Shown in pieces: positions 8,294-54,799 of a stretch of DNA of 64,000 nt. The notes under the pieces were generated by a model, which did no database searches, was not told where the DNA came from, and saw nothing but the letters and a program-made list of their open reading frames with translations. The DNA comes from Plectonema cf. radiosum LEGE 06105. GTDB lineage: Bacteria > Cyanobacteriota > Cyanobacteriia > Cyanobacteriales > Nostocaceae. Positions within the stretch are counted from its first letter, which is position 1. Each line of letters starts with the position of its first letter. The DNA lies in contig NZ_JADEWL010000001.1 in assembly GCF_015207665.1 (NCBI RefSeq), positions 62,001 through 126,000 of the forward strand, read 5' to 3'. The translations under genes and the position numbers were made by a program.

Positions 8294-8320
8294 TTCAGCT
8301 CAGAGTAGTTTAGTTTTTAT

Positions 8321-8457: not shown

Positions 8458-9567
<1,110 letters not shown>

Positions 9568-9571
9568 ATCA

Positions 9572-9609: not shown

Positions 9610-9624
9610 ATTGGTAATAAACAA

Positions 9625-9756
9625 CTAGTAGTTCACCACATAAGTTATGAGGGGTTTGTTCGTCTACCGACGTGCTGTAGAGACGTTATACATAACGTCT
9701 CTAGACAATTTTGGGAAAAACTAACCATTCAAAATTAATGTGGTGAAGTACTAGTA
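9625..9756. mobile_element. MITE-like element with cacatta-type inverted termini, first of a pair
   Basis: The left end (gttcaccacataagttatga, then gggg) is mirrored by the right end (ttcaaaattaatgtggtgaa). Both ends are embedded in actagta. The centre holds a gtagagacgttata palindrome of the family also found inside the NRPS genes. No open reading frame, so it is non-autonomous if mobile. It shares the actagta junction with the next element. Confidence 0.65.
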
Positions 9757-9936: not shown

Positions 9937-9959
9937 CTGTCAACTGTCAACTATCGCAG

Positions 9960-30388: not shown

Positions 30389-30441
30389 AGAAGTCGGGTT
30401 TTTCCGCAGTACCAGACAATCTTGATAAAAACCCGACTTCT
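30389..30441. repeat. Dispersed hairpin element, copy 6 (short, reverse)
   Basis: Arms agaagtcgggttttt and aaaaacccgacttct with a shortened 23-nt centre. It starts 23 bp after the WD40 protein stop and can serve as its terminator. Confidence 0.8.
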
Positions 30442-35970: not shown

Positions 35971-36923
35971 CGCAGTAATTAATTGTAGCGTTTGAGGATG
36001 TTTTAAACCAAGGCTAATTTTGACAATTTCTAAACCTCGTTTGTCTTCTTCACTGTTCTTAGTGATGTGTTAAGTAATCCAAATTATTGTAAATATTGGC
36101 TAAAATTTATTGACAGAAAAACTCTAGGGGGTGATTTCGATCTGCGTGCAATTTGTAGGATATTCAAAGTCTGTTTCAACTGCTTTGACCCTCTATTCAA
36201 ATTTTTCTTGTTCGCGTTTAATCAAGCAGTAGTAAACTTGGTTTGAGCAAGCTGTAGATATTGGATATTTTGATGAGATTCAAATGTCTATAAAGCCTTT
36301 TGACTTAACTTTAACAGGAACGCAGGTTATAAAGTAAAGCTAAGGTTGAACTTTGAGTTGTTATTTATACGACAAATTATATGCAAATTCTTGGATAGTT
36401 GTTAAGGTGTAGGGTAGCTTGCCTGGAACCAAATCAAGGACTGATTATACTTTCATGAGAATAATAATAACAGCTAATGTCCAGAAGTACTACTTTTAGT
36501 TGATAAATTATAAGTTGGGAAGGTTTGGCATTAATCCCAACATATCCTGCATCACCCAATCCCAATTTTTTCACTCTCCAAAATCAAGTAATTTTTTTAT
36601 ATAAAATTATTAGTATTAAAGGAAACAGACAAAAAAATAAAAAGAGGTAATATTACTAAGAGATAAATCAAATACGACTTTAACTTCTCACAAGGAGGCA
36701 ACAGGGAAGACCTGTGAGTTTTAGATATGGGAGGAAAGTTGCTTCTATGGTCATTAAGTAGGACAAGTTCGCATTTACGTACCGTGTCCCGTTTAGGTAC
36801 ATTGTCTATCCTTGAACTCTTCTCACGGCTCTAAATAGTGAGATGAGTTAATAATAATGTAATTATTTGAAAACCTCGGAGATAGTTCAGCGATATAAAA
36901 CTTTATACAGAACAGGATTCTTA
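35971..36923. other. Intergenic and leader region upstream of the NRPS cluster
   Basis: About 950 bp. The first 100 bp is the open upstream continuation of the TPR frame. The rest is AT-rich and must include the promoter of the NRPS cluster. At 36687-36720 a ctcaca/tgtgag stem surrounds an aaggaggcaac stretch. A second potential stem with gtaccgtg and taggtac lies near 36778-36800. No known riboswitch or regulator gene was recognised. Confidence 0.4.
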
Positions 36924-39143
36924 ATGTTGACAACAGGATTAACAAATAAAGCAAAAGACTTACCAGAAGTCGGACAATCCTCCCTAGGAAAGATGTCTCA
37001 AGCGGGAAAGGACAAAATAATTGAGAAGCTTGCCATTGCCGCATCCTTTACCAGTGAGCCTGTAAAGGATTCTCTTGACTTTTGGATGCAAGAAATAGGA
37101 ATCTCCTGTTTAATTGAGTTTGCCCCTTATAATCAAATATTCCAACAGTTACTTAATCAAAAAAGTATCATATCACAGAATGAGCAAGGCGTAAATATAA
37201 TTCTGATACGATTTGAGGACTGGTACCAAGATGAGGAAACTTTTAAGGACAGCGTAGAGGAATTCTTGTTGGCTATGCAAGGTGCTACACAAGCTTGCAA
37301 AATTCCTTATCTAGTTTGTATTTGTCCGTCTTCTCCCCAAGTACTTGTAGATAGCAATCGGGTGCAATTATACCGAGATACCCAAGCTGAGTTGATAGCT
37401 GAATTAAACAACATCAGCAATGTGTATGTGGTGACATCTGAAGAGTTGAATGCGACTTATCCAGTTGTAGATTATTATGACCCTTACGGGGAAGAAGAAG
37501 GAAAAATTCCTTATACTCAATCTTTTTTTTGTGCCTTGGGTACAATGTTGGCAAGAAAAATCTATGCTTTGCAAAGTTTACCTTATAAAGTGATTGTCCT
37601 TGATTGCGATAATACTTTATGGAGTGGAGTTTGTGGTGAAGATGGTGCAACTGGGGTGAAGATTAGCCCTCCATATGAAGCGTTACAACAATTTATTATC
37701 AACCAGCAGGAATCAGGAAAGCTGATTTGTTTGTGCAGCAAGAATCAAGAAAATGATGTTTTTGCGGTGTTTGAACAACATCCAGATATGTTATTAAATA
37801 AGCATCATTTGGTAAATTGGCGGATTAATTGGCAACCTAAGTCAGAGAATTTGCAATCCCTGGCTGCGGAACTTAATTTAGGTTTGGATAGTTTTATATT
37901 TATTGATGATAACCCGGTCGAGTGTGGGGAAGTTAAGGCTAATTGTCCCCAGGTTTTAACCCTACAACTTCCAGAAGAATGTCAGCAAATTCCTCGATTT
38001 CTCCAGCATATTTGGGCATTTGACCAGATACAAGTAACTAAAGAGGATAAGAAAAGGACTGAACTTTATCAGCAAAATGTCCAGCGTCAGCGTTTACATC
38101 AAGATTCACTTACTTTTAATGATTTTCTCGCTAGGCTAGGTTTAGAAATTGAGATTAACCAGATGAAACTGGAAGATTTATCAAGGGTTTCTCAATTAAC
38201 TCAACGTACTAATCAGTTTAACTTTACTACTATTCGACGGTCAGAAGGTGAGATTCAACAACTTTGTGATTCTGGTGTTTTAGAATGTCGAGTTGTTAGT
38301 GTTAAAGACAGATTTGGGGATTATGGTAAAGTTGGTTTACTGTTGTTTTCATCTAATGATGAGGTGCTAAATGTAGATACTTTTTTACTTAGTTGTCGGG
38401 TACTTGGTCGAGGTGTAGAGCATCGGATGCTTTCCTATTTGGGGGAAATAGCGCAACATCGGGGATTGAGTAAAGTTAATATTTTATATCAAGCAACTCA
38501 GAAAAATAAACCTGCTTTGTTATTTCTTGAAGGTATTAGCGAGAAATGTAAGCAGGATGAATATAACGAGGAAAAGAATGCTGGCTGGTTATTTCAATTT
38601 TCATCCACTGCTTTGACTGGCTTAATTTTTAATCCCACTCAAGTCGAAACTGCATCTCCACAAGATTTTCAGCAGAATAATTCTTTTCAAAGTAAAACTA
38701 TAAATTCTTCAGAGCTACAGGCTGACTCGGAAATAGTTGTTTTGGAACGTATTGGCAAACAATTATATAGTCCTGAAATTATACTTAAAGAAATTTTATA
38801 CCGACAAAAACGCCAACGTCCAAACTTAGAAATAGAATTTGTTGCTCCTCGTACTTCTGTGGAGGAAGCAATCGCTAGTCTGTTCGTTGAAATTTTAAAA
38901 ATAGACCGAGTAGGGATTGATGACAACTTTTTTGAGTTGGGTGGAAATTCCTTGTCTGCTACCCAGTTAATTTCTCGATTGCGGGATGCTTTTAAACTAG
39001 AATTATCTCTAAATCTTTTATTTGAATTTCCTACAGTAACCGGCTTAGCTGAGAGTTTTGAGGTTCTACAAACTACAACAAAAAATATAGATATTACTTC
39101 TATTAATGATAATGAAGAAGAGTATGAAGAAGGTATTTTATAG
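36924..39143 (+). CDS. FkbH-like HAD-IIIC glyceryl-loading enzyme with fused carrier domain
   Basis: 739 residues from the ATG at 36924 (agga upstream); a TTG at 36867 would add 19 residues. FkbH enzymes take 1,3-bisphosphoglycerate, dephosphorylate it and load the glyceryl unit onto a carrier phosphopantetheine. The N-terminal region (AAFSFTSEPVKDSL-like, FWMQEIGISCLIEFAPYNQ) is FkbH-specific. The HAD core has DCDNTLW (Asp227, Asp229) and FIDDNPVE. A GNAT-like segment follows (NQFNFTTIRRSEGEI, DRFGDYGKVGLL). The C-terminus is a peptidyl/acyl carrier domain with GGNSLSAT (Ser676). The fusion supplies both loading enzyme and carrier, so this should be the starter module of the assembly line. 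Confidence 0.88.
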   Translation: MLTTGLTNKAKDLPEVGQSSLGKMSQAGKDKIIEKLAIAASFTSEPVKDSLDFWMQEIGISCLIEFAPYNQIFQQLLNQKSIISQNEQGVNIILIRFEDWYQDEETFKDSVEEFLLAMQGATQACKIPYLVCICPSSPQVLVDSNRVQLYRDTQAELIAELNNISNVYVVTSEELNATYPVVDYYDPYGEEEGKIPYTQSFFCALGTMLARKIYALQSLPYKVIVLDCDNTLWSGVCGEDGATGVKISPPYEALQQFIINQQESGKLICLCSKNQENDVFAVFEQHPDMLLNKHHLVNWRINWQPKSENLQSLAAELNLGLDSFIFIDDNPVECGEVKANCPQVLTLQLPEECQQIPRFLQHIWAFDQIQVTKEDKKRTELYQQNVQRQRLHQDSLTFNDFLARLGLEIEINQMKLEDLSRVSQLTQRTNQFNFTTIRRSEGEIQQLCDSGVLECRVVSVKDRFGDYGKVGLLLFSSNDEVLNVDTFLLSCRVLGRGVEHRMLSYLGEIAQHRGLSKVNILYQATQKNKPALLFLEGISEKCKQDEYNEEKNAGWLFQFSSTALTGLIFNPTQVETASPQDFQQNNSFQSKTINSSELQADSEIVVLERIGKQLYSPEIILKEILYRQKRQRPNLEIEFVAPRTSVEEAIASLFVEILKIDRVGIDDNFFELGGNSLSATQLISRLRDAFKLELSLNLLFEFPTVTGLAESFEVLQTTTKNIDITSINDNEEEYEEGIL

Positions 39144-39425
39144 GTGATAAAACTGGAATAAATGTATATAAATACCATTAACATATTAAAATAATGGTGT
39201 TTTTAGGATGCGTTATAACTAAGTTCGTAACGATGAGGAGAATACACACCGCGTTTTGCCTTCCCTACAAAAATTTCTCCCTTCTTTATGATTAATTATT
39301 GATTAAAAAAACCTCACAGACAAGGCACTGCGTTGCGGAGGTTCCCTGCGTTGTTGTAGCAATTACCGTGCAAAGGACGCAGAGGAAAGAGATAAACAGA
39401 GATAACAACTAACAACTAACAACTA
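39144..39425. other. Spacer between the FkbH gene and NRPS 1
   Basis: 282 bp with no gene. It contains dispersed-repeat debris (cactgcgttgcggaggttcc, aaaggacgcagagg) and heptamers (aacaact aacaact) directly before the NRPS 1 ATG, leaving no usual ribosome binding site. Confidence 0.5.
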
Positions 39426-42400
39426 ATGACTATAGTTAAATTTTTATCTAACTTAAAAGGTTTAGGAATTAATGTCTGGGTTGAAGATCAACAGTTGCGT
39501 TATCGTTCTCCCAAGGGAGTAATGACATCAACCCTGAAACAAGAATTAATCGAGCGAAAAACAGAAATCCTGGCTTTTCTCCAAGAAGCTCATATTGCTA
39601 AAGAATCCTCAAACACAGCAATAGTAGCTGTTCCCCGAAAAGGAGACTTACCTTTATCCTTCAGCCAGCAAAGGATGTGGTTTAGCTATCAATTAGATAG
39701 TAACAACCCTTTTTACAATGAAAGTTTCCAAGTGCAAATTACAGGGAAGCTAAATATCCCTGCTTTGGAGAAAAGTATTAATGAAATTGTCCTTCGTCAC
39801 GAAGCTTTACGAACAAGTTTTCCGACTGTAGAAGGAAAACCCTTACAACAGATTAACCCTAGCTTAAGGGTACCTTTACCAGTAATTGACTTCCAAGGTT
39901 TATCAGAAGCAGAGTTACAACAAATTATTAGCAATGAAGCAAGGAAACCTTTTGACCTTAGCAATGATTCTTTGTTACGAACTACTTTACTACACCTTGA
40001 TTCAGAATCCCATGTGCTGATATTAGTCATGCACCACATCATCACAGATGGTTGCTCAATGGGAGTGTTTTTTCAAGAATTATCTGCCTTTTATCAAGAT
40101 ACAATATGTCGCGTCTCTACAAATTTACCAGAATTACCCATCCAATATGCAGACTTTGCAGTTTGGCAACGTCAATGGTTAACTGGGGAGATACTGGAAA
40201 GACAACTAAACTATTGGAAGCAACAGTTAGCTTCAGTTCCACCATTGTTGGAGTTACCAACTGATAAAACTCGTCCTCCCGTACAAACTTATTGTGGAAA
40301 GATAACTCAATTTCAACTTGACCAAAATTTGACCAAACAACTACAAACCCTCAGCCAAAAGTCAGGAACAACTTTGTTTATGACTCTATTGGCGGCTTAC
40401 AGTATTTTACTCTATCGCTATAGTGGTCAAGAGGATATTTGTGTTGGTTCTCCCTTTGCTAACCGCAATCGTCGGGAAATAGAAGCATTAATTGGCTTTT
40501 TTGCTAATACAATAGTTTTACGTACCCAAATTAAAGATAATCCCAGCTTTGCTGAATTCTTACAACAAGTACGACGGGTTGTTTTAGATGCTCACGCACA
40601 TCAAGATGTACCCTTTGAGCAAGTTGTAGAAGTATTACAACCAGAACGCTCTCCCAGTTACAATCCGTTGTTTCAGACGATGTTTGTACTGGAGAATTTT
40701 TCCATAGATACATTCGATTTACCTGATATTTCCTTGACTCCCCAGTTAGTAGAGCGGGGTACATCTCAGTTTGATTTAAGCTTGTCGATGTGGGAAACAC
40801 AAGAGGGACTTAGAGGTTATTGGGAATATAATACTGACTTGTTTGAAAGTACTACGATTGCGAGGATGACAGGTCATTTGCAAACTTTGTTATCAGCGAT
40901 TGTTGCGAATCCCCAGTCTATAATTAGTGAATTACCTATCCTCACAGAAAAAGAACAGCATCAGTTATTAGTTGAGTGGAATTCTAAGCAGAGTGATTTT
41001 CCTCATGACAAATGTATTCATGAGTTGTTTGAGTTACAGGTAGAAAAAACACCATTTGCGATCGCGGTGGAATTTGGCTCTCAAAAACTGACCTACGCAC
41101 AATTAAACATCAAAGCCAACCAACTAGCACATCATCTACAAACTCTGGGTGTAAAACCTGAAGTGCTGGTTGGTTTATGTGTAGAGCGTTCCTTAGAAAT
41201 GGTGGTGGGATTATTGGGAATACTCAAAGCTGGTGGTGCTTATGTTCCCCTAGACCCAAATTATCCCCCAGAGCGTTTAGCGTATATGTTAACTGATTCT
41301 GGGGTGTCGGTGCTACTAACTCAACAGAAGTTAATCAATGCTTTACCTGAAAGTAGTGCAAAAGTAATTTGCTTGGATACAGATTCAATATGTAGAGACG
41401 TTATATGTAACGTCTCTACAGAGGTAAAATCGAATAATTTAGCTTATATAATTTATACTTCGGGTTCTACAGGAAAACCAAAGGGTGTAATGATAGAACA
41501 TCAGTCTTTGGTAAATTTCATTGAAGCCGCAAAGATAGAGTATGAAATCAGTTCCAGGGATAGAATTTTGCAATTTGCATCAATTAGTTTTGATGTAGCA
41601 GCAGAAGAAATTTATACTTTTTTGACCTCTGGTGCAACAGTGGTATTACGCAGCGATGAAATGATCGGTTCTATTGCTAAATTCCTCCAAAACTGCTGGG
41701 AGTTGCAGTTAACGGTATTAGATTTACCCACAGCCTATTGGCATCAATTAACCTCTGAATTAGCAACTACAAATCAAATATTACCGCCATCAGTACGATT
41801 GGTAATTATCGGGGGAGAAGCAGCATTGCCAGAAACATTGAATCTGTGGCAAAATTATGGGTCAAGCAAGCTCACAAAACCTCCCTTATTAATTAATGCT
41901 TACGGTCCGACGGAAGCAACTGTAGAAACAACAATATGTAAATTGTCCGAGTTGCGATCGCCTGACATCAAGGAACACTTACCCATCGGACGACCACTGA
42001 ATAATGTAGAAGTATACATTCTAGATAAATACCTGCAACCAGTTCCTATTGGTGTACCGGGAGAATTGTATATTGGTGGCGCGGGTTTAGCTAGAGGTTA
42101 TTTCAACCATCCAGAGTTAACGGTTGAAAAATTTATTCCAAAACCTTGGGAAAAATCCCAAAGACTCTACAAAACCGGCGATTTAGTTCGTTATTTACCT
42201 GATGGTAATATTACCTTCATTGGTCGAATTGATAACCAAGTTAAAATTCGTGGTTTTCGGATTGAATTAGGAGAAATCGAAACCGCGATCGCCACACATC
42301 CCCAGATCAAAGAAGCTGTAGTTATCGTCCGAGAAGATGAACCAGGGAAAAAGCGTCTTGTTGCTTATGTAGTAGAACAATCCTCAATCCAAAATACATT

Positions 42401-44222
42401 GCGGGACTTCCTCAAACAGAAGTTACCCGACTACATGATACCTAGTCTTTTTGTGACGTTAGATTCATTACCTCTTACCCCCAGTGATAAGGTAGACCGT
42501 CGCGCCCTTCCGGTTCCATTAGTAAATATTGATTCAGAAAACTTTGTTGCTCCCCGTACTAATACTGAAGAAACATTGGCTGTAATTTGGCAGGATGTCT
42601 TAAAGTTAAAACAAGTAAGTATTTATGACAACTTCTTTGAACTGGGTGGAGACTCTATTATCAGTATTCAAATTATCGCTCGCGCTCATCAAGCTGGTTT
42701 AAAACTGACACCAAAACAATTATTTCAATATCAAACTATTGCGGAATTAGCAACAGTTGCTGGTACAGCTACTAATAATCTACAAGCACAACAAGGTTTA
42801 GTGACTGGAGAAATTCCCCTAACCCCAATTCAGCATTGGTTTTTCGAGCAAAATTTTGCTCAACCCCACCACTTCAACCAAGCAATGCTACTGGAAGTAC
42901 CATCTAATATTAAACCAGAGTTATTGCAGCAGGTACTACAGCAGTTGTTGATTCATCATGATGCTTTGCGTCTGCAATATATCCAGCATAATAATTCTCA
43001 ATGGCAGCAAATTAACGGCGATGCTAGCTCTTCTGTACCCTTCGAGGTTGTGGACTTATCAAACCTGACATCAGAAGAACAAAAAATCGCGATCGCGCAA
43101 AAAGCAAACGCACTACAAAGGGTACTAAATCTCTCTACAGGTAACTTAATCCAGGTAATGTTATTCCAGTTGGGTGTCTCTTCACCGGGACGTTTACTGA
43201 TTATTATCCATCACCTCGCTGTTGATGGTGTTTCATGGCGAATTTTACTGGAAGACTTGACAACAGCTTATTACCAAATTTTGCAGGGAGAAAATATCCA
43301 ATTAGTAGCTAAAACTACATCTTTTCAAGATTGGTCATATCGACTCCAAAACTACGCTCAAGAGCAAAAATTAAGATTAGAGTTAAAATACTGGTTGCAA
43401 AATTTTGATACTTTTGCTACTGTTTTACCTGTAGATTATGCTTATGAAAAATCTGCTAACACTGTCGGCAGCAGCAAAATTGTATCTGTATCCCTGAGTA
43501 GGGAACAAACTCGCAATTTATTGCAAGATGTGCCTTCAATTTATAACACCCAAATTAATGATGTATTGCTTACTGCCTTAGTGCAAACCTTTGCTCAGTG
43601 GGGTGGTTGTAATTCTTTACTCGTTGACTTAGAAGGTCATGGAAGAGAAGATTTATTTGAGGATGTGGATTTATCCCGCACCCTAGGGTGGTTTACTAGT
43701 GTGTTCCCTGTTCGATTAAAACTAGAAGACTCAATCCATTCTGGAGAAGCTCTCAAATCAATTAAAGAACAACTGCGAGAAATTCCCCAACGAGGTATTG
43801 GCTATGGCATTTTGCGCTATCTCAGTCACGATCAGACTATCTGCGAACAATTACAAGCACTTCCCCAAGCCGAGATAAGTTTTAATTACTTGGGTCAATT
43901 TGACCAAACACAGTTCGGTGATGGGTGGAAATTTGCTCAAGAGTCGAATGGTGAGATTCATAGTCCTTTAGGACAGCGCTCTCATTTATTAGAAATAGAT
44001 GGGTTAATTATTAACGGTAGACTGCAATTGGATTGGAGGTATAGCCAAAATATTCATAGACAGTCTAGCGTAGAAAATTTAGCTAATTATTATCTACAAG
44101 CTCTAGAAGCAATTATCGCTCATTGCCTGTGCAAAGAAGCAGGAGGATATACTCCTTCAGATTTTCCAGAAGCAGGATTAAGTCAAGATGAGCTTGATGC
44201 ATTGCTGTCAATCCTTGATTGA
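39426..44222 (+). CDS. NRPS 1: docking-C-A-PCP-E module
   Basis: 1598 residues. An N-terminal TubC-type docking domain covers residues 1-55 (FLSNLKGLGINVWVEDQQLRY-like). Condensation runs about 70-500 with intact MHHIITDG. Adenylation runs about 520-1020 with YTSGSTGKPKG, NAYGPTE, YKTGDLVRY and GDKVDRR-type end. PCP has GGDSIIS (Ser1077). A C-terminal epimerisation domain (about 1125-1570) has IIHHLAVDG. The residue is thus delivered as the D-form. The hand-read binding-pocket code is D-V-E-D-I-G-A-V-E-K; acidic positions 239 and 278 suggest a basic side chain. Two palindrome-derived segments lie in frame (near 40101 and 41391). It should condense its residue with the glyceryl starter. Confidence 0.93.
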   Translation: MTIVKFLSNLKGLGINVWVEDQQLRYRSPKGVMTSTLKQELIERKTEILAFLQEAHIAKESSNTAIVAVPRKGDLPLSFSQQRMWFSYQLDSNNPFYNESFQVQITGKLNIPALEKSINEIVLRHEALRTSFPTVEGKPLQQINPSLRVPLPVIDFQGLSEAELQQIISNEARKPFDLSNDSLLRTTLLHLDSESHVLILVMHHIITDGCSMGVFFQELSAFYQDTICRVSTNLPELPIQYADFAVWQRQWLTGEILERQLNYWKQQLASVPPLLELPTDKTRPPVQTYCGKITQFQLDQNLTKQLQTLSQKSGTTLFMTLLAAYSILLYRYSGQEDICVGSPFANRNRREIEALIGFFANTIVLRTQIKDNPSFAEFLQQVRRVVLDAHAHQDVPFEQVVEVLQPERSPSYNPLFQTMFVLENFSIDTFDLPDISLTPQLVERGTSQFDLSLSMWETQEGLRGYWEYNTDLFESTTIARMTGHLQTLLSAIVANPQSIISELPILTEKEQHQLLVEWNSKQSDFPHDKCIHELFELQVEKTPFAIAVEFGSQKLTYAQLNIKANQLAHHLQTLGVKPEVLVGLCVERSLEMVVGLLGILKAGGAYVPLDPNYPPERLAYMLTDSGVSVLLTQQKLINALPESSAKVICLDTDSICRDVICNVSTEVKSNNLAYIIYTSGSTGKPKGVMIEHQSLVNFIEAAKIEYEISSRDRILQFASISFDVAAEEIYTFLTSGATVVLRSDEMIGSIAKFLQNCWELQLTVLDLPTAYWHQLTSELATTNQILPPSVRLVIIGGEAALPETLNLWQNYGSSKLTKPPLLINAYGPTEATVETTICKLSELRSPDIKEHLPIGRPLNNVEVYILDKYLQPVPIGVPGELYIGGAGLARGYFNHPELTVEKFIPKPWEKSQRLYKTGDLVRYLPDGNITFIGRIDNQVKIRGFRIELGEIETAIATHPQIKEAVVIVREDEPGKKRLVAYVVEQSSIQNTLRDFLKQKLPDYMIPSLFVTLDSLPLTPSDKVDRRALPVPLVNIDSENFVAPRTNTEETLAVIWQDVLKLKQVSIYDNFFELGGDSIISIQIIARAHQAGLKLTPKQLFQYQTIAELATVAGTATNNLQAQQGLVTGEIPLTPIQHWFFEQNFAQPHHFNQAMLLEVPSNIKPELLQQVLQQLLIHHDALRLQYIQHNNSQWQQINGDASSSVPFEVVDLSNLTSEEQKIAIAQKANALQRVLNLSTGNLIQVMLFQLGVSSPGRLLIIIHHLAVDGVSWRILLEDLTTAYYQILQGENIQLVAKTTSFQDWSYRLQNYAQEQKLRLELKYWLQNFDTFATVLPVDYAYEKSANTVGSSKIVSVSLSREQTRNLLQDVPSIYNTQINDVLLTALVQTFAQWGGCNSLLVDLEGHGREDLFEDVDLSRTLGWFTSVFPVRLKLEDSIHSGEALKSIKEQLREIPQRGIGYGILRYLSHDQTICEQLQALPQAEISFNYLGQFDQTQFGDGWKFAQESNGEIHSPLGQRSHLLEIDGLIINGRLQLDWRYSQNIHRQSSVENLANYYLQALEAIIAHCLCKEAGGYTPSDFPEAGLSQDELDALLSILD
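40101..40122. repeat. Half palindrome inside NRPS 1 condensation domain
   Basis: acaatatgtcgcgtctctac, one arm of the gtagagacg palindrome family, translated as TICRVST just before LPELPIQYADFA. The insert sits in a variable loop between conserved C-domain motifs. Confidence 0.55.
41391..41420. repeat. In-frame gtagagacg palindrome inside NRPS 1 adenylation domain
   Basis: 30-bp near-perfect palindrome (arms tgtagagacgtta and taacgtctctaca) read through as CRDVICNVST, in the loop just before the A3 motif. The same palindrome type is intergenic at 9676 and 44918. Confidence 0.8.
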
Positions 44223-44276
44223 TAAAGTCAGCCTTCTTACTGTAAGCCCCTGTCTAATCGCTGAAGTCCTCAGAGG

Positions 44277-44467
44277 ACTACTAGTACTTGATTGCATTAG
44301 TTTTGCTGGGTTAAATATTTGTAGTGGGAGCGTCTCGCTCCCTGGTAGTAGCTAGCGAGCTAGATGCCACCAGCGAGCTTTCCGGTATGCCCCTCCGGGG
44401 CAGGCTACGCCAACGCACTACGAATTTCTTACCCATCATAATTAATGAAAAGGACCACTAGTAGTCC
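44277..44467. mobile_element. MITE-like element, copy 1 of a perfect 191-bp direct repeat
   Basis: Ends agtacttgattgcattagtt and aattaatgaaaaggaccact are imperfect inverted copies, both set in actagta. The interior is a set of nested stems (gtagtgggagcg, gcgagcta, cccctccgggg). It is identical to 44557-44747. Confidence 0.75.
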
Positions 44468-44563
44468 ATTGCATTAAATTTGATGGGTAACGCGCTCGTT
44501 ACAATCAGCGAGCGGGACGCTCGCACTACTTCTACCCCTCAGAACTAATGAAATGAACTACTA
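44461..44563. mobile_element. Short MITE-like element between the two 191-bp copies
   Basis: Left end agtccattgcattaaatttg and right end agaactaatgaaatgaacta are inverted relatives of the same termini. The centre carries a cgctcgtt/agcgagcgg stem. Confidence 0.65.
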
Positions 44564-44747
44564 GTACTTGATTGCATTAGTTTTGCTGGGTTAAATATTT
44601 GTAGTGGGAGCGTCTCGCTCCCTGGTAGTAGCTAGCGAGCTAGATGCCACCAGCGAGCTTTCCGGTATGCCCCTCCGGGGCAGGCTACGCCAACGCACTA
44701 CGAATTTCTTACCCATCATAATTAATGAAAAGGACCACTAGTAGTCC
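44557..44747. mobile_element. MITE-like element, copy 2 of the 191-bp direct repeat
   Basis: Base-for-base identical to 44277-44467, offset 280 bp. Perfect identity implies a recent duplication or gene-conversion event. Confidence 0.75.
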
Positions 44748-44875
44748 GCCACATTAATTTTGAGGGGTATTACTTCAGTCCTATTTATAGGACTTTCGCT
44801 ATTAGACAGGGACTTACAGTCCCTGGCGAGTTGGATACCCACCCCTCAAAACTTGTGTGGTCAAGTACTAGTGGT
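44741..44875. mobile_element. MITE-like element with cacatta-type termini
   Basis: Left end agtccgccacattaattttg (then aggggt) and right end acccctcaaaacttgtgtgg form an inverted pair, with actagta/actagtg at both junctions. The termini match the pair of elements upstream of recG. Confidence 0.65.
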
Positions 44876-44917
44876 TTATGTCATAAATTCTGACGGGTTC
44901 GTTTATTGTCGAAACCA

Positions 44918-44947
44918 TGTAGAGACGCGATATATCGCGTCTCTACA
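44918..44947. repeat. Perfect 30-bp gtagagacg palindrome
   Basis: tgtagagacgcgata followed by its exact reverse complement, 42 bp upstream of the NRPS 2 ATG. It lies in a solo left-end fragment of the MITE-like family that starts near 44869. Confidence 0.85.
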
Positions 44948-44989
44948 ACCTTCCTCCCTATATTTCTCAAAAAATAACTGGTAACTGAA

Positions 44990-47900
44990 ATGACACTTAA
45001 CGTTCCAGAAAATAAAAGTAAAAATATTGAATCCATTTACTCGCTTTCTCCAATGCAGGAAGGTTTGCTCTTCCATACCCTTTACGAAGGAGAATCGGGT
45101 GTTTACTTCGAGCAACTGAGCTTTAATCTGAGTGGAAACTTAAATGTTACTGTCTTTGAACAAGCTTGGCAACGAGTAGTGGAACGACATCCAGTATTAC
45201 GTACTCTTTTTGTATGGGAAAATAGTAAAAAACCACTGCAAGTAGTACGCAAAAAGGTAAATCTACCTTGGGCTAATTATGACTGGCGAAATTTATCAGC
45301 AGTTGAGCAAGAAGAAAAATTTCAAACCTTTCTACAAGTAGATAGAGATAAGGGTTTTGAACTTGACAAAGCACCACTGATGCGGAACACCTTAATTCGA
45401 TTGAGCGAGCAAACTTATAAATTTATCTGGAGTTCTCATCACCTGTTAACGGATGGTTGGTGTCTACCGATTATCCTTAAAGAGGTCTTTACTTTTTACG
45501 AAGCATTGAATAAAGGCGAAGATTTATACTTACCTTCTCTGCGTCCCTACAAAGACTATATTAATTGGCTGCAAAAGCAAGATTTCTCTACAGCAAAAGC
45601 ATTTTGGCAACAAACACTCCAAGGTTTTACTGCTTCTACTCCCTTGGTTGTAGACCAAGTGGTACAGCTTTCTTCACAACATAAAAGCACTTACCAAGAA
45701 CAGCATCTACGATTATCAGAAAAGACTACCAGCGCTCTCAAATCTTTAGTAAAGCAACATCATCTCACCCTTTCTACCTTATTGCAAGGAATTTGGGCAT
45801 TGCTACTCAGTCGTTATAGTGGTGAGTCGGATGTAATATTTGGCGCTACCGTATCCGGTCGCCCTCCCACTTTGTCCGGTGTAGAATCTATGGTTGGGCT
45901 ATTTATTAATACCTTACCTGTACGTGTGCAAGTGTCGGGCGATACAGAACTATTTAAATGGTTAGAACAGTTACAGTCACAGCATTTGGAACGAGAACAA
46001 TATTCATGGTATCCCCTGGTCGAAATCCAGCGCTTCAGTGAAATACCTGGAGGAAGACCTTTATTTGAAAGTCTTGTAGTGTTTGAAAATTATCCTGTAG
46101 GTTCTTCCTTACTAGAAGACACAGCAGGTTTAGAAATTGACCAAATAAAATCCTACGAACGCACAAATTATCCTCTGACATTGGTAGTAATACCGGGGGA
46201 AGAATTGTTAGTGCGAATGCTTTACGATTGTAGTCGTTTCGATGCAGATACTATTACTAGGATGGGGAATCACTTCCTGACTTTGTTAGAGGGAGTGGTT
46301 ATAAATCCAACAAGTCAATTACAAGACTTATCTTTGATCACTGAAGTAGAACGACATCAGTTATTAGTGGAATGGAATGACACCCATACAAAATATCCTG
46401 ACAAATGTATTCATCAGTTGTTTTCAGAACAAGTACAACGCACTCCTCAAAACATAGCGCTACAGTTTGATTGCGAAACATTAACTTACGAACAATTGAA
46501 TAATCGCGCTAATCAGTTAGCAGATTATTTAATTACTTTAGGTGTCAAACCAGATGTGTTAGTTGGTTTGTGTGTAGAGCGTTCTATAGATATGGTTGTG
46601 GGGTTGTTAGCAATTCTGAAAGCTGGTGGAGCTTATGTACCCCTAGATCCAAGCTATCCTCAAGAACGCTTGGCTTATATGTTGAGTGATTCTCAAGCGT
46701 CGGTATTGCTGACTCAAAATTCATTTCTCGACTATTTACCCAAACACGAAAAAGTAGTTTGTTTGGATAAAGATATGATTACAGTTCCCTTTCTGGAGGA
46801 AATATCTAATATATCTACAGATGTAAAACCGGAAAATTTAGCTTACGTAATTTACACTTCTGGTTCCACTGGTAAACCCAAGGGAGTGGCGATGAGTAAC
46901 CGTTCCCTAGTTAACTTATTAATGTGGCAAATTGAAAATGGAATTGCTAATCGGGATGCCAAAACCCTGCAATTTTCACCGATAAGTTTTGATGTCTCCT
47001 TCCAAGAAATTTTCTCTACCTTGTGCGCTGGTGGGACATTAGTTTTAATTCCCGATGATGTGAGACGAGATGCGATCGCTTTATTAAAGTTACTCACAGA
47101 ACAAAAGATTGAAAGATTATTTCTACCTTTTGTTGCTTTACAGCAGTTAGCTGAGGTTGCTGCTAGTAGCGATTATTTACCTGTGAGTTTACGGGAAATT
47201 ATTACCGCAGGGGAACAGTTGCAAATGACAACTGCTCTGACTAACTTTTTGACAAGGCTCCCTAATTGCACACTCCAAAATCAATATGGACCATCAGAAA
47301 CTCATGTAGTCACAGCTTTTACCTTAGAACCGAATGCTGATACTCAAAAATTTTCAAGCCTTCCTCCCATTGGTCGTCCTATTGCTAACACACAGATATA
47401 CATTCTCAACTCTCATCACCAACCCGTACCCATTAATGTTCCAGGAGAACTATATATTGGGGGTGTTGGTTTAGCCAGGGAATATCTCAACCGTTCAGAT
47501 TTAACTACCGAAAAGTTTGTTCCCAATCCGTTTGTTGAAACAAGTAGGGGACACAGAGAAAGCCCAACGCCTAAATTATACAAAACAGGTGATTTAGCAC
47601 GTTATTTACCTGATGGTAATATTGAATTCCTGGGACGAATTGATAATCAAGTAAAAATACGAGGTTTCCGCATTGAGTTGGGAGAGATAGAAACTGCACT
47701 GACAGCACATCCACAAATATCGGAAGCAGTAGTTATGCTTCGAGAAGATGAACCAAACAAAAAACGTCTTGTTGGCTATATCGTAATCCAAAATCCAAAA
47801 TCTAAAATCCAAAATATATTACGGGACTTTCTCAAACAGGAATTACCCGAATACATGGTGCCTAGTGTTTTTGTATTTTTAGATGCTTTACCTTTGACTC

Positions 47901-48277
47901 CTAGCGGTAAGATAGACCGTCGTAGACTACCTGTTCCTTCTGTAAGCCATGACCTAGAAAGTTTTGTCCCACCCCGTACTCCTACTGAGGAAAATTTGGC
48001 ACAAATTTGGCAGGAAGTTTTAGGATTAGAGCAAGTAAGCATTCACGATAACTTCTTTGAATGCGGAGGACATTCTTTACTCGCAACTCAAGTAATTTCC
48101 CGGTTGCGCCAGAATTGGAAAATAGAATTACCCCTACGTCGTTTGTTTGAAAAACCGACTGTAGCTCAACTAGCTGCGAGTATTGACCTTCTGCTGTCAA
48201 CAGCGCAAAAACTCACAGAAGCATCTCCTAGCCATTTATTAGAAAACCAAGCAGAACGGGAAGAAATTGAACTGTGA
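44990..48277 (+). CDS. NRPS 2: C-A-PCP module, proline-like specificity
   Basis: 1095 residues. The C domain starts almost at once (IYSLSPMQEGLLFHTLYEGESG), the signature of condensation domains that accept a D-residue from an upstream epimerisation module; its HHLLTDG is intact. Adenylation covers about 460-960 with YTSGSTGKPKG and YKTGDLARY. The hand-read pocket code D-V-Q-F-I-A-Q-V-V-K is close to known proline codes (DVQFIAHVVK type, differing at position 322). PCP has GGHSLLAT (Ser1029). A heptamer-encoded linker (IQNPKSKIQN) lies near residue 935. The stop overlaps the NRPS 3 GTG by four bases, indicating coupled translation. Confidence 0.93.
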   Translation: MTLNVPENKSKNIESIYSLSPMQEGLLFHTLYEGESGVYFEQLSFNLSGNLNVTVFEQAWQRVVERHPVLRTLFVWENSKKPLQVVRKKVNLPWANYDWRNLSAVEQEEKFQTFLQVDRDKGFELDKAPLMRNTLIRLSEQTYKFIWSSHHLLTDGWCLPIILKEVFTFYEALNKGEDLYLPSLRPYKDYINWLQKQDFSTAKAFWQQTLQGFTASTPLVVDQVVQLSSQHKSTYQEQHLRLSEKTTSALKSLVKQHHLTLSTLLQGIWALLLSRYSGESDVIFGATVSGRPPTLSGVESMVGLFINTLPVRVQVSGDTELFKWLEQLQSQHLEREQYSWYPLVEIQRFSEIPGGRPLFESLVVFENYPVGSSLLEDTAGLEIDQIKSYERTNYPLTLVVIPGEELLVRMLYDCSRFDADTITRMGNHFLTLLEGVVINPTSQLQDLSLITEVERHQLLVEWNDTHTKYPDKCIHQLFSEQVQRTPQNIALQFDCETLTYEQLNNRANQLADYLITLGVKPDVLVGLCVERSIDMVVGLLAILKAGGAYVPLDPSYPQERLAYMLSDSQASVLLTQNSFLDYLPKHEKVVCLDKDMITVPFLEEISNISTDVKPENLAYVIYTSGSTGKPKGVAMSNRSLVNLLMWQIENGIANRDAKTLQFSPISFDVSFQEIFSTLCAGGTLVLIPDDVRRDAIALLKLLTEQKIERLFLPFVALQQLAEVAASSDYLPVSLREIITAGEQLQMTTALTNFLTRLPNCTLQNQYGPSETHVVTAFTLEPNADTQKFSSLPPIGRPIANTQIYILNSHHQPVPINVPGELYIGGVGLAREYLNRSDLTTEKFVPNPFVETSRGHRESPTPKLYKTGDLARYLPDGNIEFLGRIDNQVKIRGFRIELGEIETALTAHPQISEAVVMLREDEPNKKRLVGYIVIQNPKSKIQNILRDFLKQELPEYMVPSVFVFLDALPLTPSGKIDRRRLPVPSVSHDLESFVPPRTPTEENLAQIWQEVLGLEQVSIHDNFFECGGHSLLATQVISRLRQNWKIELPLRRLFEKPTVAQLAASIDLLLSTAQKLTEASPSHLLENQAEREEIEL
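47785..47815. repeat. In-frame heptamer STRR inside NRPS 2
   Basis: aatccaa repeated about four times (one aatctaa variant) and translated in three phases as IQNPKSKIQN, just before LRDFLKQELPEYM near the end of the A domain. NRPS 1 and NRPS 3 have only one unit here. Confidence 0.75.
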
Positions 48278-51200
48278 AAAACATTGAAGAATTTTTGTTA
48301 GACCTTTCCTGTTTAGATATTAAGCTATGGGTCGAAGAAGGTCGTTTGCGCTGTAATGCACCGAAAGGAACACTAACACCAGAAATACGTACCCATTTAT
48401 CTGAGCGTAAAGCAGAAATTATTAGTTTCTTGCAACAAATTAATCTCAATTCAAACTCTAGTTTTGAGTCTATTAGTCCGGTTCCCCGCAACCAAGAGCT
48501 ACCTTTATCCTTTGCACAACAGCGATTATGGTTCCTTTATCAATTGGAAGGGGGAAACAGCACCTACAATTTACCCTTAACACTAGAAATTACTGGCAAT
48601 CTGAATATTGCAGCCCTAGAACAAGCAATTAGAGAAATCCTGCGTCGTCACGAAATCCTGCGTACCCATATTGTCATAGTTAATGACAACCCCATGCAGG
48701 TAATTGACCCAGAAATCGATTTCAATCTAGAATTAATTGACTTAGAGGATTTACCATCCGCTTCCAAATTCACTACCGTAAAACAATTAGCCACAAAAGA
48801 AGGTGACAAACCCTTTGACCTGATCAACTCTCCTTTGGTGCGTTTCCATCTCTGGAGACTGAGCGAACAATCCCACGTATTGGTGATAAATATGCACCAC
48901 ATCGTTTCTGATGGCTGGTCAATGGGAATTTTTATGCAGGAGTTGTCCGCTTTCTATCAAGCTTTTACTTATGGAAACGCGACAAATATTTCTACAGTTT
49001 TACCGGAATTATCTATACAGTATGCAGACTTTGCCGTTTGGCAGCAACAGTATTTGCAAGGTGAAATTCTCGAAAAGCAACTGAACTACTGGAAGCAACA
49101 GTTAGCTGACGCACCACCATTGTTAGAACTACCTACAGACCGTCCCCGTCCCCCAGTTCAGAGTTTTCGCGGTGGTGTTGTAGAATTTCAACTAGATTCA
49201 GATTTAAGTGCCAAGTTGAAAATCCTCAGTCAAAAGTCAGGAGCCACGCTGTTTATGACAATGCTGGCGGCTTTTGTAACTTTACTTGAACGCTATAGCG
49301 GTCAGGATGATATCTGTATCGGTTCTCCCGTTGCTAACCGCAACCGTAAAGAGATAGAATCATTACTTGGCTTTTTTGTCAATACTTTAGTGTTGCGATT
49401 TCAGCTAGGTGAAAATCCCAGTTTTTCCGATTTACTCAATCAAGTCAAAAAAGTAGCTGCTGATGGTCAAACTCATCAGGATGTACCTTTTGAGCAGGTG
49501 GTAGAAGCATTACAGCCAGAACGAAATCTCAGTTATAGTCCTTTGTTTCAGGTGCTGTTTGACTTGCAGTATGACTCAAGGTCACAACTCGAATTCCCTG
49601 GTTTAACTGTAACTCCTTTACAAACAGAAATTGTTACCTCAAAATTTGATTTAAGTTTAGTAATAGAAGATACAATAAATGGTTTGAGAGGTTGGTGGGA
49701 ATACAGTAGCGACTTATTTAATGTAGATACCATTACCAGGATGACTGGTCATTTCCAAACCTTATTAGCAGCTATTGTTGAAAATCCGCAAACACCAATC
49801 AGTATATTACCAATACTCACACAAAAAGAGCAGCATCAATTATTAGTGGAATGGAATTCTACGAAGAGTGATTTTGCTGAAGACAAATGTATTCATGAGT
49901 TGTTTGAGTTACAGGTAAAACGCAATCCTGAAACTATAGCGCTAGAGTTTGGTTGCGAAACATTAACTTACGCACAACTAAATAACCGTGCAAATCAGCT
50001 AGCAGATTATTTAATAACTTTGGGAGTTAAACCAGATGTTTTAGTAGGTTTATGTGTAGAGCGTTCTGTGGAAATGATCGTGGGATTATTGGGGATATTA
50101 AAAGCTGGGGGTGCTTATTTACCCCTTGATCCCAACTATCCCCCAGAACGTTTAGCTCATATGGTGGATGATTCTGGGGTGTTGGTGCTATTAACTCAGC
50201 AGAAGTTAATTAATTTAATTAATTTATTACCTGAAAGTAAAGCCAAGGTAGTTTGTTTTGATAGTGACCTGATTTTTACAGACGGGATATATCCTGTCTG
50301 TACAAAGGTAAAGCCAAATAATTTAGCTTACATAATTTATACATCTGGTTCTACGGGGAAACCGAAAGGAGTGATGATTTCCCATTCTTGTGTAGTTAAC
50401 CACGCAACCAGCGCGATCGCAGAATATGGTTTGACTAATTGCGATCGAGTATTACAATTTGCTTCGTTCAGTTTTGATGTAGCAGCAGAAGAAATTTTCC
50501 CTACCTTATTAAGCGGTGGAACCTTAGTAATGCGCCCTAGAGAAATGTTCAGTTCTTTTGCTGATTTCTCCAGATTTATTGAGCAGAAAAGCTTAACAGT
50601 TGTCAATATACCAACACCATACTGGCAAGAGTGGGTTTTGGAAATATCTCAAGGTAAGTCTGTGGTACCAAACAACCTGCGTTTGTTAGTTACAGGTAGC
50701 GAACAGGTAATACCCGAACGACTAGCTTTATGGCAGCAATTGGTTGGGGATAGGGTAATGTGGGTAAATGCTTATGGTCCCACAGAAGCCACTATTACAG
50801 CTACAGTCTATAAACCACAATCATCATCAAAGCATAATTATACTAATGGAGTATCTATAGGTCGTCCCATAGCTAATACACAAATTTACATCTTAGATAA
50901 AAATCTCCAACCAGTTCCGATTGGTGTACCAGGAGAACTACATATTGGTGGTGTGGGTTTAGCATCTGGTTATCTCAATCTTCCAGAATTAACAAAACAA
51001 AAATTTATTCCTATTCCCTACTCCCTACTCCCTACTCTTTGCTCCCGACTTTACAAAACAGGTGATAAAGCACGTTATTTACCAGATGGTAATATCGAGT
51101 TCTTGGGTAGGATTGATAATCAAGTGAAAATTCGTGGTTTTCGGATTGAATTAGGGGAAATTGAAGCTCTGTTAGCTCAACATCCTCTAGTTCGAGCATC

Positions 51201-52911
51201 TGCGGTAATTGTCCGAGAAGACCAACCCGGAAACAAGCAAATTATCGCCTATATTGTCCCAAATCATCAACCCTCAATCCAAAATCAACTAAGGGATTTC
51301 CTTAAACAAAAGTTACCCGATTACATGGTTCCTTCCATATTTGTGATGTTGGAGGAACTACCTTTAACTCCTAATGGTAAAGTAAACCGTCGCGCTCTCC
51401 CAAAAGCGTCTATTTCTCAATCAGATAATTTTGTTAATCCTCGGACTGATACAGAAAAAACTGTAGCCAAAATCTGGAGTAATATCTTAGGTGTCAAACA
51501 AATAAGCATTCACGACAATTTCTTTGAATTGGGAGGACATTCCCTACGTGCTACTCAAGTAATTTCCCAGTTGCGGGAAACTTGGAAAATAGACTTACCT
51601 CTACGTTACTTGTTTGAAGAACCAACTACTGCCGGATTAGCAGAATTAATTGATAAAATTATCGCACAAGATAATTCTGCTAAAATCACCACAAATACAG
51701 AAGAAGATTTCCGTAAAGATGCTGTCTTAGACCCAAATATTCGACCCCAAAAATTATCTTTTGATGGGAAAAGTCAGCCTCAAAATATCTTATTAACTGG
51801 AGCTACTGGATTTGTCGGAGCTTATTTAATCCATGAATTATTAGAAAAAACAGAAGCTAATATATATTGTCTTATCCGTTCTCAAAATCTCGAACAAGCT
51901 AGACAAAAGCTACAAAATAAGTTGAAAATCTATGGTATTTGGGAAACAAATAAAAATACTAGAATTATTCCGATAGTGGGAGATTTATCGAAAAAACTTT
52001 TGGGTCTTTCTCCATCCCAATTTCACGATTTAGCAAATAAAATTGATATTATCTATCATAATGCTGCGTGGATAAATACAATTTATCCTTACTCTGTACT
52101 CAAACCCAGCAACGTTTTAGGAACTCAAGAAATTCTCAGATTAGCGAGCGAAATTAAACTCAAACCCGTACATTATATTTCCACCACCTCTGTTTTTTCA
52201 GCTATTGCTTATTCCCAAAACAATTGCATTTTAGAATCAGATCCATTAGATAAAACAGAAGGTCTTGAAAATGGATACTGTCAAAGTAAATGGGTAGCTG
52301 AAAAATTAGTCATGGAAGCACGAGATAGGGGACTTCCAGTTAGTATCTACAGATTAGCCAGAGTCACAGGACATAGCCAAACTGGCATTTGTAACACAGA
52401 TGACTTGTTTTGTAGATTAATTAAAGGTTGTATACAAATGGGAATTGCACCCCAAATGGATGATGCTTTAGATAACTTGACACCTGTTGATTATGTAAGT
52501 AAGGCTATTGTCCATCTATCACAACAAAAAGAATCTTTAGGGAAAGCATTTCACTTGCTTAATCCCCATCCTACCCCAATGAACGAACTGTTTAACTTGA
52601 TTCCAACTTTAGGCTATCCTTTACAACAAGTTCCCTATCAACAGTGGTTAGAGCAACTGGTTAAAGAATCACAGTTAGATTCAGATAACGTTCTTAAACC
52701 ATTGCTACCTGTATATTCTCAAAACACAACGGATTCAACACCAGAACCAGAATTTGATCTCACAAATACTCACCAAGGTTTAGTGGGTACAGATATTATA
52801 TTTCCTTCTATGGAACTACAACTACTAGAGACTTATTTTTCTTACTTTATCAAGAGTGGTTATTTAACTGCTCCATTATCAACTAATCAACTTACAGCAC
52901 TTTGTAGGTAA
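48274..52911 (+). CDS. NRPS 3: docking-C-A-PCP-terminal reductase module
   Basis: 1545 residues from a GTG that overlaps the NRPS 2 stop (gtga). A TubC-type docking domain covers residues 1-55 (FLLDLSCLDIKLWVEEGRL). The C domain has MHHIVSDG. Adenylation covers about 530-1030 with YTSGSTGKPKG, NAYGPTE and YKTGDKARY. PCP has GGHSLRAT (Ser1090). The C-terminal thioester reductase domain has the NAD(P) motif GATGFVG (1176-1182) and the short-chain dehydrogenase pair Tyr1335/Lys1339 (YCQSK). Reductive release should give a C-terminal aldehyde, possibly reduced further to alcohol. The hand-read code is D-V-E-N-V-G-A-I-T-K, with Glu239 as in NRPS 1. Palindrome and heptamer segments lie in frame near 50277 and 51014. 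Confidence 0.93.
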   Translation: MKNIEEFLLDLSCLDIKLWVEEGRLRCNAPKGTLTPEIRTHLSERKAEIISFLQQINLNSNSSFESISPVPRNQELPLSFAQQRLWFLYQLEGGNSTYNLPLTLEITGNLNIAALEQAIREILRRHEILRTHIVIVNDNPMQVIDPEIDFNLELIDLEDLPSASKFTTVKQLATKEGDKPFDLINSPLVRFHLWRLSEQSHVLVINMHHIVSDGWSMGIFMQELSAFYQAFTYGNATNISTVLPELSIQYADFAVWQQQYLQGEILEKQLNYWKQQLADAPPLLELPTDRPRPPVQSFRGGVVEFQLDSDLSAKLKILSQKSGATLFMTMLAAFVTLLERYSGQDDICIGSPVANRNRKEIESLLGFFVNTLVLRFQLGENPSFSDLLNQVKKVAADGQTHQDVPFEQVVEALQPERNLSYSPLFQVLFDLQYDSRSQLEFPGLTVTPLQTEIVTSKFDLSLVIEDTINGLRGWWEYSSDLFNVDTITRMTGHFQTLLAAIVENPQTPISILPILTQKEQHQLLVEWNSTKSDFAEDKCIHELFELQVKRNPETIALEFGCETLTYAQLNNRANQLADYLITLGVKPDVLVGLCVERSVEMIVGLLGILKAGGAYLPLDPNYPPERLAHMVDDSGVLVLLTQQKLINLINLLPESKAKVVCFDSDLIFTDGIYPVCTKVKPNNLAYIIYTSGSTGKPKGVMISHSCVVNHATSAIAEYGLTNCDRVLQFASFSFDVAAEEIFPTLLSGGTLVMRPREMFSSFADFSRFIEQKSLTVVNIPTPYWQEWVLEISQGKSVVPNNLRLLVTGSEQVIPERLALWQQLVGDRVMWVNAYGPTEATITATVYKPQSSSKHNYTNGVSIGRPIANTQIYILDKNLQPVPIGVPGELHIGGVGLASGYLNLPELTKQKFIPIPYSLLPTLCSRLYKTGDKARYLPDGNIEFLGRIDNQVKIRGFRIELGEIEALLAQHPLVRASAVIVREDQPGNKQIIAYIVPNHQPSIQNQLRDFLKQKLPDYMVPSIFVMLEELPLTPNGKVNRRALPKASISQSDNFVNPRTDTEKTVAKIWSNILGVKQISIHDNFFELGGHSLRATQVISQLRETWKIDLPLRYLFEEPTTAGLAELIDKIIAQDNSAKITTNTEEDFRKDAVLDPNIRPQKLSFDGKSQPQNILLTGATGFVGAYLIHELLEKTEANIYCLIRSQNLEQARQKLQNKLKIYGIWETNKNTRIIPIVGDLSKKLLGLSPSQFHDLANKIDIIYHNAAWINTIYPYSVLKPSNVLGTQEILRLASEIKLKPVHYISTTSVFSAIAYSQNNCILESDPLDKTEGLENGYCQSKWVAEKLVMEARDRGLPVSIYRLARVTGHSQTGICNTDDLFCRLIKGCIQMGIAPQMDDALDNLTPVDYVSKAIVHLSQQKESLGKAFHLLNPHPTPMNELFNLIPTLGYPLQQVPYQQWLEQLVKESQLDSDNVLKPLLPVYSQNTTDSTPEPEFDLTNTHQGLVGTDIIFPSMELQLLETYFSYFIKSGYLTAPLSTNQLTALCR
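50277..50302. repeat. In-frame palindrome inside NRPS 3 adenylation domain
   Basis: tacagacgggata paired with tatcctgtctgta (one mismatch), translated as TDGIYPVC. It is at the same loop, just before the A3 motif, as the 41391 palindrome in NRPS 1, but with a variant sequence. Confidence 0.75.
51014..51040. repeat. In-frame heptamer STRR inside NRPS 3
   Basis: ttcccta ctcccta ctcccta ctcttt, translated as IPYSLLPTLC between KFIP and RLYKTGD of the adenylation domain. The same heptamer is intergenic at 4511. Confidence 0.75.
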
Positions 52912-54733: not shown

Positions 54734-54799
54734 AGAAGTCGGGTTTTGCTCGCAATTTGTAACCGTGTTACAGATACTTGTGCTAAAAACCCGACTTCT
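54734..54799. repeat. Dispersed hairpin element, copy 7 (bidirectional terminator position)
   Basis: Arms agaagtcgggtttt and aaaaacccgacttct. The centre contains tgttacagatacttgt, like copy 1. It lies between the convergent stops of the exporter and pntB, as copy 1 does between dedA and argG. Confidence 0.85.

Follow-up and report, generated by a model that had tools for sequence, protein, structure and literature searches.

A dispersed Nostocales palindrome read in frame in an NRPS adenylation-domain loop, where it appears to take the place of host sequence

How does a dispersed palindrome come to be protein-coding sequence in an assembly-line enzyme, and is the enzyme lengthened by it? The question is raised by NRPS1 of Plectonema cf. 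radiosum LEGE 06105, which lies in the stretch of 64,000 nucleotides analysed here (the window: contig NZ_JADEWL010000001.1, positions 62,001 to 126,000), and in which residues 656-665 of the ORF, CRDVICNVST, are encoded by a 30-bp palindrome with perfect 13-nt arms and a 4-nt centre (14 of 15 pairs overall). These residues are followed by EVKSNNLAYII and then, 11 residues downstream, by the A3 motif YTSGSTGKPKG. The original prediction had placed this palindrome in one family with two intergenic palindromes of the window and had read it in frame as ten residues just upstream of A3, and both statements were borne out, the arms TGTAGAGACG/CGTCTCTA being common to all three copies. A covariance model, R1, built from 28 copies, matched the NRPS1 palindrome on the + strand with 51.3 bits (E 2.7e-14), and the palindrome is among only 4 hairpins of the window that score at least 13, compared to 0 or 1 per dinucleotide shuffle (20 shuffles of the window). 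The host A domain covers the full PF00501 profile (E 3e-87) and its A3 is intact, YTSGSTG being invariant in A2.

NRPS1 is part of an assembly line (window 36867-52911) which has a reductase at its end and a start that we take, by sequence, to be an FkbH-like protein with a carrier domain; with this architecture the product could be a peptide aldehyde or alcohol that starts from a glyceryl unit. The second condensation-family domain of NRPS1 is presumably, by its motif, an epimerisation domain. The same line holds two more copies that were absent from the original prediction, namely a related palindrome in NRPS3, at the position that corresponds to the NRPS1 site (model R1: 29.1 bits, E 1.2e-6, for the - strand and 24.1 bits, E 6.5e-5, for the + strand), and a half copy in the condensation domain of NRPS1. 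As model R1 gave no match to the half copy at E <= 1, its identity rests on the homologous condensation loops of genomes G091 and G007, which hold full palindromes. The pre-A3 loop of NRPS2 aligns with palindrome-derived loops of its orthologues and has no recognisable palindrome itself. Other repeats occur nearby: a 62-bp imperfect palindrome downstream of NRPS1 (window 44429-44490) contains CTAGTAGTCC, a word that recurs beside several of the intergenic 30-bp copies, and another dispersed inverted repeat, AGAAGTCGGGTTTTT...AAAAACCCGACTTCT with its close forms, is present 6 times in the window (Table 1).

Table 1. Repeats and host genes of the window, and sites of translated copies elsewhere (G000, own genome; C42, Calothrix sp. 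C42_A2020_038)
Feature	Position or locus	Strand	Remarks
NRPS1, host gene	39426..44222	+	TubC_N docking, condensation, adenylation, carrier, second condensation-family domain
Decayed half copy TGTCGCGTCTCTACA	40107..40121	+	in frame, CRVST; NRPS1 condensation-domain loop before LPELPIQYADF
30-bp palindrome TGTAGAGACGTTATATGTAACGTCTCTACA	41391..41420	+	phase 0, CRDVICNVST; pre-A3 loop, NRPS1 adenylation domain
Intergenic copy TGTAGAGACGCGATATATCGCGTCTCTACA	44918..44947	.	between NRPS1 and NRPS2; model R1
NRPS2	44990..48277	+	pre-A3 loop FLEEISNIST
NRPS3	48274..52911	+	TubC_N, condensation, adenylation, carrier, terminal reductase (NAD_binding_4)
Related 30-bp palindrome TTTACAGACGGGATATATCCTGTCTGTACA	50275..50304	+	homologous NRPS3 site, read as FTDGIYPVCT
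Intergenic copy TGTAGAGACGTTATACATAACGTCTCTAGA	9676..9705	.	core of larger repeated element; model R1
AGAAGTCGGGTTTTT...AAAAACCCGACTTCT type repeat	window 814-877, 2253-2319, 5888-5951, 12945-13006, 30389-30441, 54734-54799		
In-frame copies, pre-A3 loop	the cluster; separately Planktothrix sp. PCC 11201 (L111)		L111 in another frame
In-frame copies, between LLTQ and VVCLD	G118 (L276), G133 (L292)		
In-frame copies, before A1	L286, L324		
In-frame copies, A5 loop	G000 C78, G003		
In-frame copies, pre-A7	G000 C54, G003, PCC 7103		
In-frame copies, linker before A10	L111, PCC 7103		decayed in C42 and G091
In-frame copies, condensation loop	G091 twice, G007 twice		another condensation-type site in L073
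In-frame copies, KS-AT linker	G000 C82 (L194), L079		weakly L321 (E 0.047)
CCCCTCTCCTTANTAAGGAGAGGGG family in NRPS	L164 (G000:C78:1-19999), 6558-15410; also L029, L036, L038		

The family is widely dispersed. The own genome (7.60 Mb in 323 contigs) has 74 exact TGTAGAGACG-N0-30-CGTCTCTACA places, compared to 0 for the backwards control, and of 192 genomes sampled from its taxonomic family, 180 contain the exact family with N6-14, at 1 to 250 places each. Model R1 was applied to the window together with five cluster loci (E <= 1), to 80 own loci (E <= 0.01) and to 79 named and 55 further loci (both E <= 0.05); its own-genome matches, together with four window places and nine exact-pattern places, gave 125 own places by coordinate (the fetched own loci contain 72 of the 74 exact places, and several inexact own places lie outside them). 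The genome-wide count of coding and non-coding copies that had been proposed as a check could be made from these: 114 of the 125 are outside ORFs of at least 150 residues and 11 are genic, in loci (0.90 Mb) that are 72.5% ORF. The genic places are in NRPS (four: the two window copies, one in the A5 loop of contig C78 and one before A7 in C54), PKS (two, within one PKS), a CbiG/tetrapyrrole methylase, two different WD40 proteins and two copies of one kinase-AAA gene; the 6 of 11 in NRPS/PKS are a raw count and not a tested enrichment, because the own loci were fetched for holding copies. Among the other loci, which were selected as NRPS-rich, 33 copies separated by their flanks were found (21 genic and 12 not; L066 and L077 were dropped as duplicates of L267 and L266). 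A pattern allowing 5 arm mismatches was also tried on the own genome, and its 12 places in ORFs were left unused as they appeared by eye to be mostly chance.

Of the three frames of the repeat only one is closed, by a TAG, so that a copy which keeps a multiple of three can be carried along as protein, and genic copies are always read in one of the two frames without TAG. They measure 27-30 bp and have no larger common flanks, except in the duplicated kinase-type gene. Many own intergenic copies are embedded as the core in longer repeats whose flanks recur (for example in L015, L159 and L162, and in L189, L166 and L175), and these flanks are missing from the genic copies. One subfamily in the own genome is asymmetric, with TGTA at one end and the other end variable. 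In L198, two copies with the same unusual end, CGTCTCATGA, and the same flanks lie 5.5 kb apart (2885-2914 and 8415-8444) in two neighbouring ORFs, apparently a tandemly duplicated kinase-type gene that brought its insert along.

That the ten residues were additional, as the original prediction had it, did not hold, whereas their derivation from the dispersed repeat and their reading in frame did. In an alignment of 28 A domains including that of NRPS1, the stretch across the loop and A3 comprises 40 residues in NRPS1 and 42 in 20 of the 27 others (the remaining 7 having 41 in four cases and 40, 45 and 51 in one each), with no gain in length. From LLTQ to A3 there are 48 residues in NRPS1 and 51 in NRPS3, with a median of 50 over the 287 A domains in which the LLTQ motif was found. 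Linear gramicidin synthetase aligns across the loop with gaps of one or two residues only; since the loop positions are present in A domains of such far bacteria, the sequence of the loop has been replaced rather than added to. A clean +30 bp insertion in NRPS1 was ruled out by these loop lengths together with the homologous loops described below. The ten residues themselves are not conserved in ordinary A domains, and therefore the repeat origin stands. In the best of five AlphaFold2 models of a 536-residue piece (mean pLDDT 85.2; range over the five, 66.9 to 85.2), the palindrome residues, 148-157, belong to a coil, 142-163, which is flanked by strands 138-141 and 164-170. Judged from alignment and prediction, the copy fills an ordinary A-domain loop, and it has replaced host sequence between two strands just upstream of A3. 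Some other linkers do differ in length: in NRPS1 of Calothrix sp. PCC 7103 the linker before A10 exceeds that of the window by 5 residues, and the three KS-AT linkers that contain the repeat measure 17, 19 and 19 residues, 15 being the length in 11 of 25 linkers. Some KS-AT linkers (L272, L292, L305, L322, L141 and L095) consist of EQGRQG/REQGAG-like runs, which look like translated short tandem DNA repeats.

The same assembly line was found in G091, in G007 (on two short contigs), in Calothrix sp. PCC 7103 (L077) and in Calothrix sp. C42_A2020_038 (L066), with module orthology taken from nearest neighbours in a tree of post-A3 cores. Pre-A3 loops that are palindromic, expanded or decayed are present in NRPS1 and NRPS3 of both the window and G091, in NRPS3 of G007, and in NRPS3 and, as a mixed version, NRPS2 of PCC 7103; the loops of PCC 7103 NRPS1 and of G140 are ordinary and those of C42_A2020_038 are remnants at best. 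Several have grown by half units: the G091 NRPS3 loop, TGTAGAGACGCGACATGTGGAGACGCGACATGTCGCGTCTCTACA, encodes CRDAT CGDAT CRVST, the G007 NRPS3 loop has three tandem 15-bp units (RTGDV RDGDV RTGNV) followed by the right half ACATGTAACGTCTCTACA, and the condensation loop of G091 NRPS1 reads KDAIS TDATC RDVAC NVST. Decayed copies with the same centre, TTACATGTAA, occur in G091 NRPS1 and PCC 7103 NRPS3, and this centre, which G007 NRPS3 and PCC 7103 NRPS3 have in common, is one base off the window copy. The right half C-N-V-S-T is found in four loops (window NRPS1, G007 NRPS3, G091 NRPS1 and PCC 7103 NRPS3), with synonymous codon changes in two of them, which hints at some constraint. A G007 sequence, L017/L269, was considered as the NRPS1 orthologue and rejected, as the post-A3 core tree puts it next to NRPS3; a loose pattern gave 40 positives, mostly chance by eye, and the resulting 36 changes were not used.

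As related lines have intact, expanded or decayed versions in their homologous loops, the NRPS1 copy is old and was inherited within the line, and a recent hop from copies of the own genome is not supported. That a mobile palindrome of the own genome was inserted lately and added ten residues is very unlikely: the NRPS1 copy is indeed one base off the centre TTATATATAA, of which the own genome has five exact 30-bp copies, but no copy with the centre TTACATGTAA was present among 31 own places of the TTATATATAA form (up to 3 mismatches), the loop is no longer than others and homologous palindromes exist in other genomes. The 30-bp copy probably joined the assembly line before the related strains separated. 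Because PCC 7103 NRPS1 is ordinary and C42_A2020_038 NRPS1 at most a remnant, it may have entered NRPS1 by exchange and not from one shared ancestor; the upstream A-domain parts of NRPS1 and NRPS3 share 73% identity, and an exchange between these two genes seems likely, which would have involved the similar N-terminal halves of the A domains. The near-perfect state of the window copy (14 of 15 pairs) beside its decayed homologues counts against this reading, since it is not required of an old neutral copy and would be better accounted for by exchange with another copy, arm-templated repair or selection.

It might be the hairpin itself that is selected, for mRNA structure or translation pacing between sub-domains or as a DNA recombination site for module exchange, with the peptide as a by-product. 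The NRPS3 palindrome differs from the family by a paired change, C-G for G-C at positions 5/26, so palindromy survives changes in its arms; several modules of one line have loop copies, and the identity between the NRPS1 and NRPS3 parts would fit module exchange. On the other hand, the hairpin has been lost in many homologous loops with the frame still open (window NRPS2, C42_A2020_038, G091 NRPS1), the PCC 7103 NRPS1 loop is ordinary and family copies in G091 also change in pairs at 5/26. There, 33 places with the centre TAGCATGCTA vary at these positions, 28 of them paired (23 G-C and 5 other) and 5 unpaired, although some contigs look duplicated. Separate pair counts over collected copies are not independent evidence, many of these copies having been selected as palindromic. 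Paired change, by repair or by copying of variants, therefore occurs in the family at large and need not be special to genes, and we regard selection on the hairpin as unlikely. No TAGCATGCTA-centre places were found in seven other genomes with up to 2 mismatches. In one G091 region (G091:C117:67804-68606) eight copies with this centre follow each other at a regular 111-bp spacing. A derivation of the NRPS3 copy from an own TACAGACG..CGTCTGTA family was rejected, since the own genome has a single exact place of this form, and with a different centre.

The NRPS1 case is not singular, as the family is read in frame in at least 5 further types of megasynthase loop, as well as in other proteins (Table 1, where we have assigned the site names A1 to A10 and KS-AT by motif). 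For L194, the KS and linker domains are given by Pfam. A survey of 294 NRPS ORFs (412 A3 motifs, 522,406 residues) gave 50 hairpins of score at least 11, spanning several palindrome families, compared to 7 in one codon shuffle. That the palindrome arose by chance or by convergent codon use is scarcely credible given this excess, its hairpin score and its copy number, and is already refuted by the 30-bp match to a dispersed family. Eleven of the 50 are no more than 61 residues upstream of A3, and include the copy that prompted the survey, both window copies, three from contig L164 and unrelated palindromes (L094, Acidobacteria bin), so that an enrichment before A3 is suggestive only. VETLYITS or a one-residue variant is encoded in five unrelated own proteins; CbiG has it as an insert in both G000 and G001 and in altered form in G003, and it is missing from L254, L255 and L258, the linker being readable by pattern in only 6 of 30 loci, plus one false match (L251). 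A second palindrome family, CCCCTCTCCTTANTAAGGAGAGGGG and close forms, encodes SPPSPLLTKERGVRQDGV-like peptides at many places in the NRPS ORFs of contig C78, and is also translated in NRPS of G001 and G003. The best reading of the in-frame copies is that length-tolerant megasynthase loops took up copies of a Nostocales palindrome several times.

Comparison of sister domains with and without the repeat suggests how copies enter. In L276, compared with L276b/L282, about 30 bp of LVNSIP codons are replaced, with a net change of +3 bp against its own tandem neighbour; L292 against L093 gives a net +9 bp, and L111 against L105 (Microcystis) a net +27 bp. Host bases were lost or changed at the junctions of all three, and no target-site duplication was seen by eye in these three comparisons, which show an exchange of host sequence and not clean insertion. 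The right junction of L276 is closer to a third relative, L285, than to the tandem neighbour, which may mean that A domains have also recombined there. The two sister A domains of L292 (G133), L093 and L090, have GTAGAGTCTCT and GTAGAATCTCT (VESL) at the spot where L292 has GTAGAG-ACGTTGCATACAACG-TCTCTA; GTAGAG, a codon pair for Val-Glu, and TCTCT after it are the ends of the element. Seeds of this type are present in 3 of 413 A domains, a count that stands without a further chance control. We tentatively suggest, as a possibility well short of an even chance, that copies enter genes by template switching or gene conversion at such end-like sites, with no transposase, and that the hairpin then makes them grow and shrink in 15-bp, five-codon steps; if so, the element would generate loop length in assembly-line enzymes without risk to the frame. 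Y1_Tnp (PF01797) has 10 matches in the own genome (RAYT and IS200 types pooled), and a palindrome copy is present in 1 of the 10 loci (each about 3.1-3.4 kb), that of the best-scoring match, on C104.

Taken together, the ten codons are probably an old copy of the Nostocales-wide palindrome TGTAGAGACG-N10-CGTCTCTACA, which replaced loop sequence, was neutral and changed later. Such a copy would require no function of its own, as the loop tolerates changes of sequence and length, and once within genes such copies gain or lose 15-bp half units (five codons), acquire paired and unpaired arm substitutions, decay and are probably exchanged between modules. Short dispersed palindromes are a recurrent source of protein sequence in cyanobacterial NRPS/PKS, at defined linkers and loops, and for annotation and engineering of these enzymes such loops would be natural exchange-tolerant places. 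Hairpins in NRPS/PKS loops may be prone to recombination, and sister domains with and without the repeat offer a set for testing how it moves.

Several known systems resemble this one in part. The SDRs of Nostoc punctiforme, reportedly described by Elhai in 2008, are said to be very small mobile repeats (21-27 nt) of heterocystous cyanobacteria which change in pairs and are often nested in larger elements, and many intergenic copies here are similarly nested. MITEs differ in that the three comparisons made here show replaced host bases and no target-site duplication. Rickettsia palindromic elements (RPE) are in-frame palindromes of about 150 bp within genes (PMC10969869); the likeness is in a dispersed palindrome translated in frame within unrelated genes with a recurring encoded peptide (PMC10969869, PMC3733652), and the differences are in size (about 150 bp in PMC10969869 against a 30-bp unit) and phylum. 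A further difference is that NRPS/PKS genes hold 6 of the 11 genic places of the own genome, and that the repeat replaced host sequence in the cases compared.

GTAG/CGTC REPs are described in PMC3733652 as palindromes of 20-40 bp from several species, mostly intergenic with some wholly within ORFs, many intragenic ones being in DNA synthesis and repair genes; their stem variants arise by complementary changes, and the cyanobacterial REPs GTAG-12, -15 and -16 are reported (PMC3733652). The palindrome here is of that size (30 bp) and also mostly intergenic (114 of 125 own places). REPs have an orientation given by a tag at one end (PMC3733652), whereas the exact copies here have GTAG at both ends and as part of the paired arm. 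A related setting is the mcy cluster of Planktothrix, where PMC4766695 (cited in PMC9366434) describes RR1-RR7 as REP-like, GC-rich repeats of 43-45 bp which are targets of ISPlr1, with RR1 within mcyD and RR3 within mcyA; these are palindromic repeats inside cyanobacterial NRPS/PKS genes. The word "in-frame" is absent from PMC4766695, and its available descriptions of RR1-RR7 contain no sequence matching the palindrome. Among the open-licence papers listed by our literature searches, none was seen to describe palindromes translated in frame within NRPS loops, and searches with the sequence strings of the repeat gave no cyanobacterial title among the matches listed. In-frame palindromic repeats as such were known already; what appears to be new is their recurrence in defined NRPS/PKS loops across lineages, the replacement of host sequence and growth by half units.
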